NCBI RefSeq assembly: GCF_018612915.1 | Contig: NZ_JAGGRL010000001.1 | Span: forward strand, 62,001 to 126,000 | DNA from: Stenotrophomonas sp. ISL-67 | GTDB lineage: Bacteria; Pseudomonadota; Gammaproteobacteria; Xanthomonadales; Xanthomonadaceae | Length of the DNA: 64,000 nt | Direction of reading: 5' to 3' | Shown here: one piece after another, positions 17,234-22,157 of the stretch | How positions within the stretch are numbered: the stretch's first letter is position 1 | How the letters are laid out: each line of letters begins with the position of its first letter | Position numbers and translations under genes: made by a program | Notes under the pieces: model-generated | What the model saw: the letters and a program-made list of their open reading frames with translations, nothing else | Database searches by the model: none | What the model was told of the DNA's origin: nothing

Positions 17234-17324
17234 GGAGAGGTGGCAGAGCGGTTGAATGTACCTGACTCGAAATCAGGCAGGCGTTTATAGCGCCTCGGGG
17301 GTTCGAATCCCCCCCTCTCCGCCA
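17234..17324 (+). tRNA. tRNA-Ser (CGA)
   Basis: The 91-nt class II tRNA has a long variable arm, acceptor GGAGAGG/CCTCTCC, anticodon CGA in CTGACTCGAAATCAG, and encoded CCA. Its 3' half is part of the 81-bp palindrome described separately. Confidence 0.95.
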
Positions 17325-17386
17325 GACACGCAAAAAGGCCACCCATTGGGTGGCTTTTTTGCGTGTCTGGCGGAGAGGGGGGGATT
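17306..17386. repeat. 81-bp near-perfect palindrome spanning the tRNA-Ser(CGA) 3' end and terminator
   Basis: Two 40-nt arms flank the single base at 17346, with one mismatch (a G-T pair in RNA). The left arm starts inside the T-arm of the tRNA, includes the 3' acceptor strand and CCA, and continues through the terminator. The right arm is the reverse complement, so an inverted ghost of the tRNA 3' end lies at about 17365-17386. The core GGCCACCCA/TGGGTGGCTTTTTT serves as terminator. Confidence 0.9.
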
Positions 17387-17390
17387 GCAA

Positions 17391-17520
17391 CGGCGCTTTG
17401 CGCCGTTGCCCCCGCGTGTTTCCTCTCCCCGCCCCTGTCGGGGCAGCCCCTCAACAGAGGGGCTTGTCCTCCCCGACGGCGTAAAATCACGCCCGCATGG
17501 CTGAGTGTTGGCCGGCATCG
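17391..17520 (+). other. Gene-free stretch after tRNA-Ser(CGA)
   Basis: Between the palindrome and the next repeat lies GC-rich sequence with small hairpins (GGCGCTTTGCGCC, CCCCTGTCGGGG, CCCCTCAACAGAGGGG). No open frame resembling a protein and no clear promoter could be recognised. Confidence 0.4.
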
Positions 17521-17628: not shown

Positions 17629-18021
17629 ATGAGCGCAGAAATCCAAGTCCCCGTGTCCTTTGGCGAGCTACTGGACAAGATCTCCATCCTGCAGATCAAG
17701 TCCGAGCGGGTCAGCGATCCGGGCAAGCTGGTCAACATCCGCGCCGAATTGAGCGCGCTGGAGAAAACCTGGATGGTGCACCCGGCCGGGGGCAAGGACA
17801 TCGCCAAGCTGCGCACCGAGCTCAAGGACGTCAACGAAAAGCTGTGGGATATCGAAGACAACGTCCGCCTGAAAGACAGGGCAGGGGAGTTCGATGAGGC
17901 GTTCGTCGCCCTGGCCCGCAGCGTTTACCAGAACAACGATGAGCGGGCGCGCATCAAGAAGGACATCAACAAGGCGCTGGGTTCGCTGTACATCGAAGAG
18001 AAATCGTACAAGCACGCCTGA
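17629..18021 (+). CDS. DUF6165 family protein
   Basis: The 130-residue hydrophilic, mostly helical protein begins MSAEIQVPVSFGELLDKISIL and has long charged helices rich in Lys/Glu. I recognise it as a DUF6165-type protein, a family of unknown function often near lipopolysaccharide sugar genes. Here a family-9 glycosyltransferase and Kdo kinase follow within 1.2 kb, which fits a role near LPS core assembly, but no enzymatic motif is visible. Confidence 0.7.
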   Translation: MSAEIQVPVSFGELLDKISILQIKSERVSDPGKLVNIRAELSALEKTWMVHPAGGKDIAKLRTELKDVNEKLWDIEDNVRLKDRAGEFDEAFVALARSVYQNNDERARIKKDINKALGSLYIEEKSYKHA

Positions 18022-21179: not shown

Positions 21180-21497
21180 ATGGCCTGGATCTATCTACTG
21201 GCAGCCGGTGTACTGGAAATCGTCTGGGCGTTCGCGATGAAGCAGTCCGACGGTTTCAGCAAGCTCACCCCCTCCATCATCACCATCGCCGGCATGATCG
21301 CCAGCTTTTGGCTGCTCGCCCTGGCGATGCGCACATTGCCCCTTGGCACCGCATACACGATCTGGACCGGCATCGGCGCGGTCGGCGCGTTCGTGATCGG
21401 CATCGTGTTCCTGGGCGAACACGTCAGCGCGATGCGCATTGCCGCGGCGGTGTTGATAGTGAGCGGGCTGGTGCTGATGAAAGTGTCGAGCGCGTAA
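21180..21497 (+). CDS. gdx: Guanidinium exporter (SMR family)
   Basis: The 105-residue protein has four transmembrane helices. The SugE/Gdx-type signature GVLEIVWAFAMK places the essential glutamate at E13, and the last loop GAFVIGIVFLGEHVSAMR is typical. Gdx proteins export guanidinium in exchange for protons as antiparallel dimers. The guanidine-II riboswitch directly upstream makes guanidine export the likely role rather than broad drug efflux. A strong Shine-Dalgarno AAAGGAGG precedes the ATG. Confidence 0.92.
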   Translation: MAWIYLLAAGVLEIVWAFAMKQSDGFSKLTPSIITIAGMIASFWLLALAMRTLPLGTAYTIWTGIGAVGAFVIGIVFLGEHVSAMRIAAAVLIVSGLVLMKVSSA

Positions 21498-21582: not shown

Positions 21583-21666
21583 CAGCAGCCACAGGCACAC
21601 GCCATTGGCCGCCAGGTTCAATGCACCGGCAATGCCCATGCCTTCGAACAGTGGCACGGTCGGATG
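21583..21666 (-). pseudogene. Remnant of a cation transporter (CDF-like) gene
   Basis: On the minus strand, about 28 codons read HPTVPLFEGMG then IAGALNLAANGVCLWLL. This resembles one transmembrane segment of CzcD/CDF-like cation transporters (FEGMG...NGVCL.LL). No start, metal site or other helices are present and the frame soon runs into a REP. The call rests on recalled family similarity only. Confidence 0.35.
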
Positions 21667-21674
21667 GGTCAATT

Positions 21675-21741
21675 GTAGAGCCACGCCCTGCGTGGCTTCG
21701 CGGTGCTGAACGGAGGGCAGCCACGCAGGGCGTGGCTCTAC
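21675..21741. repeat. Inverted GTAG repeats (GTAGAGCCACGCCCTGCGTGGC type)
   Basis: Two facing copies of the GTAGAGCCACGCCCTGCGTGGC element are separated by about 20 bases. The rest of 21742-21864 shows no gene. Confidence 0.85.
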
Positions 21742-21864
21742 CCAAAGGGTCGCCCTTCGGGCGGCGTTGCTTATCTGGCAGGTTGGTCGTGCGTGGCGGG
21801 CTGGTGGCCGCTTCATTGCCGGGGATTGCGGGGCCCATCCATGGGCCCCGTCCGGTGTTTCTCG

Positions 21865-21945
21865 TCCCCCTCTCTCCGCCAGACAGACGCAAAAAGGCCG
21901 CCCAGTGGGCGGCCTTTTTGCGTCTGTCTGGCGGAGAGAGGGGGA
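21865..21945. repeat. 81-bp perfect palindrome spanning the tRNA-Ser(GGA) 3' end and terminator
   Basis: Two 40-nt arms are exact reverse complements around the single base at 21905. The right arm covers the terminator half and the 3' strand of the tRNA (acceptor, CCA). The left arm is an inverted ghost of the same. The core GGCCGCCCA/TGGGCGGCC with A/T runs on both sides is the terminator. The layout is the same as at 17306-17386. Confidence 0.93.
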
Positions 21946-22021
21946 TTCGAACCCCCGAAGCGCGGTTTAGACGCTTACACACTTTCCAGGCGTGCTCCTT
22001 CAACCGCTCGGACACCTCTCC
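21929..22021 (-). tRNA. tRNA-Ser (GGA)
   Basis: The 93-nt class II tRNA has acceptor GGAGAGG (5') and a matching 3' strand, anticodon GGA in CACGCCTGGAAAGTGTG, a long variable arm and encoded CCA. The stretch GGTGTCCGAGCGGTTGAAGG is typical of bacterial tRNA-Ser(GGA). Confidence 0.95.
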
Positions 22022-22157
22022 GGACCTGCTGCGTTAACCCGCTGCAGGGGCGCAGATTCTAGCCGGGGAATGCGATCTGCACAAGCACCGCGATGCCGGG
22101 CAGGGTGGGGCTGGACAGGCGTGGCACAATGGACGTCCCGATGAAGACGGTGGCCTG

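Follow-up and report, generated by a model that had tools for sequence, protein, structure and literature searches.

How does a palindrome with one arm inside a tRNA gene come to exist, and what keeps its two arms identical? The window analyzed here, a 64-kb stretch of the Stenotrophomonas sp. ISL-67 genome, raises this question at the 3′ end of a tRNA-Ser(GGA) gene and, with one mismatch, at a tRNA-Ser(CGA) gene nearby.

Geometry and recurrence of the tRNA-Ser palindromes

The palindrome scan, a repeat search and a DNA fold all recovered a palindrome at 21865–21945 with arms of 40 nt around one central base (21905). The scan found no mismatch over this 40-1-40 layout, in agreement with the initial annotation, and the repeat search extended the inverted similarity, with mismatches, to arms of 52 nt. 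Because ARAGORN places a 93-nt tRNA-Ser(GGA) gene with encoded CCA at 21929–22021 on the minus strand (also an RF00005 match), 17 nt of the inner arm (21929–21945, minus strand) are the 3′ end of the tRNA, hereafter the tail. Folded as single-stranded DNA, the 81-mer reaches −56.9 kcal/mol, whereas shuffled sequences average −14.5 (sd 2.6). The scan scores and the shuffled folds reject a chance origin, and the palindrome is confirmed as real and far beyond chance.

Reading outward from the tRNA gene, the tail is followed by the 3′ trailer GACAGACGC (21920–21928, minus strand), the terminator AAAAAGGCCGCCC-3 nt-GGGCGGCCTTTTT, the mirrored trailer (21882–21890) and the mirrored tail TGGCGGAGAGAGGGGGA (21865–21881, minus strand). 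The trailer is perfectly mirrored in the sequence and covaries among relatives; the outer arm end is the exact reverse complement of the tRNA tail, as seen in both the palindrome scan and the flank comparison. Beyond it lie CGAGAAACACCGGA, the hairpin CGGGGCCCATGGATGGGCCCCG and then CAATCCCC. The predicted intrinsic terminator core, AAAAA-GGCCGCCC-3 nt-GGGCGGCC-TTTTT (21891–21919), was read from the sequence and is symmetric and of the bidirectional type. The sequence and the RNA fold place a GC-rich stem and a T-run behind the gene, as expected of a terminator; a terminator consensus scan of the window does not list this core, probably because the T-run falls within the stem. In the ORF list, a convergent 105-aa ORF, which we take to resemble an SMR-type transporter, occupies 21180–21497 on the plus strand and ends 368 nt before the palindrome.

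ARAGORN predicts 11 tRNA genes in the window. The companion palindrome (17306–17386; ARAGORN and palindrome scan) reaches 19 nt into tRNA-Ser(CGA) at 17234–17324 on the plus strand. The GGA and CGA palindromes lead the scan of the whole 64 kb (loops of at most 10 nt) with scores of 40 and 36, followed by 26 and 22. Both flanks begin GACA..CGCAAAAAGGCC; the two are therefore not independent in sequence, as they had been taken to be.

Other palindromic repeats occur in the window at 21675–21741, 94–154 and 1373–1434. They include a pair of related GGTAGCGCCGGCC hairpins and one GTAG-tagged hairpin, GTAGAGCCACGCC...GTGGCTCTAC, of a type known from Stenotrophomonas (studies cited in PMC12306157). 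We rejected a SMAG/GTAG-type identity for the tRNA palindrome: such a repeat lies nearby (21675–21741), and its sequence is unrelated to the tRNA mirror.

Scoring of all tRNA flanks in the window's own genome (76% complete; 38 tRNA matches and 38 flanks scored) revealed only two with arms deep in the tRNA, those of Ser-GGA and Ser-CGA. One tRNA-Lys flank enters its tRNA by 2 nt, and the terminator arms of tRNA-Ser(GCT) remain outside. In the relative G037, where 64 flanks were scored from 65 tRNA matches, three strong-scoring flanks enter by at least 3 nt: Ser-GGA (10 nt), Ser-CGA (4 nt) and Gln-CTG (3 nt). The last of these (L161) has perfect 23-nt arms, so mirrored arms are not confined to tRNA-Ser. 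The proposed specificity for class II tRNA-Ser genes thus survives as a bias, in two of 38 flanks here and two of the three strong cases in G037, and not as a strict rule.

Extending the tRNA-Ser(GGA) search to 61 genomes of the genus, the window's own included, yielded a sample of 106 distinct tRNA-Ser flanks (55 GGA and 51 CGA, with the window's two among them). The arms enter the tRNA by at least 3 nt in 49 of the 106 (24/55 GGA, 25/51 CGA) and do so with many different trailers, which bears out the earlier suggestion of recurrence and not chance; the other 57 enter by less than 3 nt or score low. Among the 49 entering flanks, depth ranges from 3 to 19 nt and arm length from 24 to 40 nt. 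Entry reaches at least 10 nt in 10/55 GGA and 4/51 CGA flanks, and at least 16 nt in 3/55 and 3/51. The commonest depth is 5 nt (25/49), which contradicts a preferred stop at the T-arm. A fixed 40-1-40 module is likewise rejected by the spread of arm lengths: the "exactly same layout" described by the initial annotation applies to both window loci, the CGA one with its mismatch, and is no rule among relatives.

A strict pattern of 10 mirrored nucleotides occurs in 12 of the 61 genus genomes and in 14 of 149 family genomes (8 of 54 genera); because the pattern searches demand these 10 nt, the mirror length of the loci that they return is conditioned by them. The unit in one genus locus (L050, genome G051) is identical to that in S. 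pennii locus L225, a name that resolves to S. lacuserhaii; on this ground we take the sampled genus to be Stenotrophomonas.

A two-anchor pattern applied to named genomes returned at least 114 stretches, and those listed comprise 80 loci with 81 matches. Among the matches listed, 67 of 81 lie at a predicted tRNA-Ser (28 GCT, 21 GGA, 12 CGA and 6 TGA) and 14 do not. Those listed include loci of Rhodanobacter, Dyella, Pseudoxanthomonas, Massilia, Duganella and Thiodiazotropha, and of assemblies labelled Clostridia and Bacteroidales. A perfectly mirrored 7-nt trailer is present in 44 of these 67 listed tRNA-Ser loci. The exact mirror spans 10 to 23 nt in the 67, which were selected for at least 10; the longest stretch noted, in L244, is an inverted copy exact for 23 nt that reaches the T-loop.

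The initial annotation had proposed asking whether the arms co-evolve with changes in the tRNA, and this check came out positive. An exact match of at least 14 nt to the locus's own tail is present in 38 of the 67 listed loci, whereas 2000 tail shuffles averaged 7.1 and never exceeded 15; because the loci share ancestry to some degree, this comparison does not amount to a probability. The pattern itself fixes 10 nt; the identity score uses nucleotides 11–18, and the exact-length count needs 14. On sequence comparison, then, the mirror follows each tRNA's own tail beyond the 10 nucleotides fixed by the pattern.

At six loci of the Massilia/Duganella type (L201, L208, L219, L234, L249 and L258), the complement of the tail is split and reads TGGCGGAGAGA-hairpin-GGGGGATTCGAA.

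The element behind tRNA-Ser(GGA) and two kinds of flank

The outer arm at many GGA loci forms the first strand of a structured element roughly 130 nt long, which the initial annotation had not noticed. Intact relatives share a common order: tRNA tail, terminator, reverse complement of the tail, structured element, direct tail copy and second terminator. The element ends in CAATCCCC(C/T)CTCTCCGCCA, which is the direct copy of the tail, and another trailer and terminator follow. Twenty-three rows were classed as tail copies, two of which, L038(+) and L046(−), are mirrors read on the other strand.

The Rfam RtT model (RF00391), run under stricter filters, matched four of the 61 genus genomes at E ≤0.1, two of them over the cut-off of 45 bits (G004, locus L083, with 49.9 bits, and G038). 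Since it matched so few, we built a covariance model from the genus (R1, from alignment A1), which comprises 19 elements and 37 pairs, 10 of them with two-sided changes. R1 recovers its own 19 source sequences by construction. Built solely from genus elements, it also finds three of the four E. coli RttR copies, at E values of 4e-6 to 5e-5. By this sequence match, the elements of the intact relatives are of the RtT type and homologous to E. coli RttR. R1 matches at E ≤0.001 in 36 of 100 genus loci, 17 of which are model sources. Among the 80 loci listed from the named-genome scan, 38 match at E ≤0.01 (23/40 and 15/40); none of the listed loci labelled Clostridia, Bacteroidales, Porphyromonadaceae or Muribaculaceae does so.

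In the window, R1 matches 21813–21926 on the minus strand (28.4 bits, E 5.6e-7), where its support comes from the 3′ hairpin and CAATCCCC and the 5′ half of the alignment falls on the terminator. This match and a comparison with L094, L107 and L121 point to a truncated RtT-type remnant at 21819–21881 (minus strand; ...GGGGGACGAGAA...CGGGGCCCATGGATGGGCCCCGCAATCCCC) that has lost its middle and its tail copy. The outer arm end at 21865–21881 occupies the position of the first strand in intact relatives, and the element starts with a complement to the tail of the adjoining tRNA gene, a feature of RtT. The remnant ends CAATCCCCGG..., with no CTCTCTCCGCCA tail copy within 330 nt. Rfam RtT has no match at E ≤5 in 21600–22100 of the window and, under the stricter filters, none in the window's genome. 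Given that it falls short of the Rfam cut-off and lacks the terminal tail copy, we do not assign the remnant to RtT. A permissive Rfam scan also returned miRNA families; these scored under their cut-offs, and we discounted them as hits to a long hairpin.

The Rfam family sX4 (RF02223) exceeds its cut-off at 7 CGA loci of 10 sources and reaches 56.8 bits, under the cut-off of 70, at the window's GGA locus.

Tandem elements also occur, with three in L117 (258–775); L209 (2803–3452) and L224 (5936–6656) resemble this locus, with three to four successive R1 matches each. In L074 (1–1410, minus strand), an integrase gene (Pfam Phage_integrase) begins close behind tRNA-Ser(GGA), and what appears to be the same island starts in L086 beyond the tail copy of RtT. 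This spare tail may thus offer an alternative attachment site and so leave the tRNA intact.

At the window's CGA locus, the palindrome is followed on its 3′ side by a GC hairpin, with no RtT-type core on the tRNA strand. A weak antisense R1 match downstream of this gene (17372–17498, minus strand; 21 bits, E 9e-5) is probably the hairpin plus the mirrored tail. On the minus strand the CGA mirror reads ...GCAATCCCCCCCTCTCCGCCA, which resembles an inverted RtT tail.

Regular expressions composed after the flanks had been inspected divide the 49 entering flanks into two kinds and a remainder. An RtT-type core is present in 12 (11 GGA, 1 CGA), with entry depths of 6 to 13 nt; a GC-hairpin flank is present in 28 (21 CGA, 7 GGA), with a depth of 5 nt in 25 and 4 nt in three. 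Most long-armed CGA loci thus combine a GC-hairpin flank with a five-base mirror. The remaining nine, both window loci among them, match neither expression and range from 3 to 19 nt in depth. On inspection, six of the nine, all GGA (the window, L057, L081, L094, L107 and L121), resemble RtT-type variants or remnants, and the three CGA flanks (the window, L038 and L040) show a long mirror followed by a GC hairpin. Among the other 57 flanks of the sample, 13 have an RtT-type core, one has a GC-hairpin flank and 43 have neither. Entry depth therefore tracks the kind of flank, which suggests that the end point is inherited with the flank and not set anew.

The GC-hairpin flank (TGGCG-CGGGACGCG...hairpins...CCTCTCCCCGCCCCTGTCGGGG; for example L140, L088 and L115) is found at most long-armed CGA loci and also behind RtT tail copies; a unit of this type sits there in L041, L091, L092, L095 and L118. 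In L082, L092, L095, L097 and L118, a 4.5S SRP RNA gene lies between the two tRNA-Ser genes. At the second tRNA-Ser(CGA) copy of L094, the flank runs into an N and then the end of another tRNA, probably an assembly join at the palindrome.

Changes between relatives and candidate explanations

To follow how the arms change, we split each locus into trailer, core, loop and outer arm and kept 126 of 129 such units, two rows being one palindrome read on opposite strands. Among 67 distinct 7-nt trailer pairs, 15 are perfectly mirrored, with 15 different trailers; shuffling of the outer arms gave a mean of 0.48 and a maximum of 5 (2000 shuffles). A perfect trailer occurs in 55 units, and 51 of them also mirror at least 3 nt of the tRNA tail, compared with only two of the 50 units in which at most 4/7 trailer positions are mirrored. 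An earlier swap control had given 522/721 Watson–Crick pairs observed versus 365/707 swapped in the trailer, and no excess in the tRNA part (566/1030 versus 570/1010); the shuffle test superseded it because trailers are rich in A and the tRNA arm does not vary.

Thirteen sister pairs, chosen by eye, were then compared, and eight show exactly paired differences in the trailer or the A/T-tract on a near-identical background. These comprise an A>T change paired with T>A (L140/L141, L080/L082), G>A paired with C>T (L092/L118), paired one-base indels (L140/L137, L088/L115) and further exactly paired differences in L098/L139, L105/L127 and L133/L141. Trailer or mirror changes are one-sided in L048/L129, L045/L041 and L055/L056; L046/L040 is mixed, and L046/L127 has diverged beyond reading.

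An automatic count over 22 independent pairs gave 17 one-sided substitutions, seven two-sided ones that keep pairing and two two-sided ones that do not; three length changes are perfect in both arms versus eight that are not. In equal-length pairs whose trailers are both mirrored at 6/7 or 7/7 positions, one-sided changes lie beyond trailer position 7, by a post hoc sorting. L041/L045, whose trailers are imperfectly mirrored, differ on one side at trailer position 3. Exact inversions of a 4-nt loop between near-identical arms occur in only two cases, GAAA/TTTC (L133) and TTCG/CGAA (L041/L043); the third case on the list is the same palindrome seen on its two strands, and loops of a single base were not counted. 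We did not polarize these events on the CGA gene tree because it places 38 of 52 loci, the other 14 having no downstream-ORF match in the stretch fetched, and because 15 of its 34 inner branches are well supported.

Paired changes and loop inversions of this kind have been reported as marks of template switching, and we infer such switching here from the comparison of sequences. Template switching turns quasipalindromes perfect in E. coli (PMC7202029). It has been invoked to account for paired multi-base changes, along with loop inversions, in the stems of bacterial and other rRNAs (PMC8794818), and likewise for arm homogenization and spacer inversion in yeast genes (PMC8604942).

We therefore judge it slightly more likely than not that the palindrome is a tRNA-Ser terminator joined to a degenerate RtT-type first strand, and that template switching, in which the tRNA serves as donor, maintains the identity of its arms. 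During replication, a nascent DNA strand would pair through the terminator core, copy the opposite arm and return, as in quasipalindrome correction; this would keep the arms perfect and sometimes lengthen them. We propose that the tRNA would in effect always be the donor, since selection would remove mutations copied into its own arm; tRNA function would thus hold one arm in place, and the outer arm would have to track the tail. Synthesis of the tRNA would go undisturbed, since transcripts would normally stop at the T-run and so not reach the mirrored tail. In models, an RNA ending 6 nt past the T-run forms the normal tRNA fold plus a hairpin, and a read-through RNA buries the tRNA 3′ strand in one long hairpin, so a benefit of the mirror at the RNA level is not obvious.

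Several points temper this preference. Strong selection for pairing would also produce paired changes. In the RtT element itself, helix P1 already joins the first strand to the tail copy, and selection at the RNA level could therefore account for part of the mirror. GC-hairpin flanks fall outside the RtT account, and the window's CGA locus is among the flanks without an RtT core; the remnant at the GGA locus, for its part, has no Rfam RtT match. The one-sided sister pairs, the mixed automatic count and the small number of loop inversions also weigh against the preferred reading. As entry depth appears to be inherited, we have slightly lowered our confidence in it.

The rival that survives best, still an unlikely one in our judgment, holds that a long perfect stem would be selected in RNA. 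A read-through duplex of 25–40 bp would be used by RNase III or exonucleases to separate the tRNA, the terminator and the RtT RNA, much as happens at the processing stalks of rRNA. The paired changes fit this reading, the read-through RNA folds at z = −12.5 relative to shuffles, and sX4 models a single RNA from tRNA-Ser past the terminator into the start of the element. However, the duplex would bury the acceptor and T-arm strand of the tRNA, and loop inversions serve no pairing purpose. The stem is also absent from 57 of the 106 flanks, so the mirror is not required. G-T pairs, moreover, are rarer in mirrored trailers (6/406) than in the core and A-tract (37/804), a scarcity that speaks against selection on an RNA stem and is expected if copying of DNA makes the trailers.

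We hold it quite unlikely that the mirror serves as a strand-exchange switch, in which the anti-tail of a read-through RNA would take the tRNA tail and the spare tail would pair with the 5′ acceptor strand, coupling read-through to loss or rescue of the serine tRNA. Model folds of L050 (1418–1704) and L091 (115–450) do pair the 5′ acceptor strand with the RtT tail copy and the tRNA's own tail with the start of the element. Such a switch would need the match, and so the co-evolution of mirror and tail would follow from it.

Selection for strong bidirectional termination is highly unlikely to account for the mirror. Here a symmetric A-tract/T-tract core with T-rich mirrored trailers would stop transcripts from both sides; the core is indeed symmetric (A5 and T5), mirrored trailers are frequently A/T-rich, and the convergent ORF ends 368 nt from the GGA palindrome. 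Yet at the CGA locus the next ORF (17629–18021) is co-directional with the tRNA and the palindrome is present anyway, a tail mirrored past the T-run is not expected to aid termination, and the mirror is equally exact for trailers that contain G and C internally (GACAGACGC, GTTAACTG).

Least probable of all, and in our view very improbable, is a one-step origin that has since decayed, either a tail-to-tail inverted duplication of tRNA-Ser or a mobile-like RtT-type element bounded by an inverted and a direct tail: RtT-type elements do open with the reverse complement of the tail and, when intact, close with its direct copy, the inverted copy in L244 extends into the T-loop, tandem copies exist in L117, L209 and L224, and an island starts at a tail copy in one locus (L086), but a single old duplication leaves the two-arm trailer changes and the own-tail fit unexplained, none of the 81 matches listed has a second predicted tRNA facing the first, and a direct tail copy of at least 13 nt within 400 nt is found in just five of the 67 listed loci.

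Comparison with known systems

RttR relatives stand behind tRNA-Ser across the genus and family and follow a simple, testable rule, an anti-tail at the start and a tail at the end; tails are also mirrored at loci labelled Clostridia and Bacteroidales, for which no RtT homology was found. The open-licence PMC literature gave no account of a tRNA-Ser palindrome or of RtT at tRNA-Ser, which is weak evidence of absence. The RttR repeats that follow tRNA-Tyr in E. coli are not known to have a settled role.

With RtT/rttR at E. coli tyrT-tyrV, the elements described here share a position behind a tRNA gene, an end formed by a copy of the tRNA 3′ tail, tandem arrangement, a start (GGGG..GGATGAGAA) complementary to the tail and a core of the AGGTTCGA type. 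In its annotated record, E. coli RttR starts with GGGGAAGGATGAGAA, complementary to the tRNA-Tyr tail, and ends with that tail. The tRNA is tRNA-Ser here and tRNA-Tyr in E. coli; the mirror, whose E. coli counterpart starts 59 nt behind the tRNA, begins directly at the terminator here and is also longer, at 17 nt in the window; and the window copy is truncated and without a tail copy. The sX4 model likewise spans tRNA-Ser and the terminator up to GGGGGGUGAGA, the start of the element, as at this locus, whereas the GGA locus of the window scores below its cut-off. Intrinsic terminators share the GC stem and T-run directly behind the tRNA; the inverted repeat here, unlike theirs, extends far beyond the T-run and back into the gene.

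The closest parallel to the preferred reading, copying between arms by template switching, is quasipalindrome correction as described in PMC7202029, PMC8794818 and PMC8604942, which has in common a near-perfect inverted repeat, a tiny spacer and homogenized arms. Its spacer inversions and paired multi-base changes have counterparts here in two loops and in pairs picked by eye, with the automatic count mixed. What sets the tRNA-Ser palindromes apart is that one arm lies within a tRNA gene, which would make the copying one-way. These flanks accordingly offer a natural data set on arm identity in inverted repeats, with one arm held by tRNA function and the other following. They also carry a warning, in that covariation in a stem, usually taken as proof of RNA function, can have another cause.
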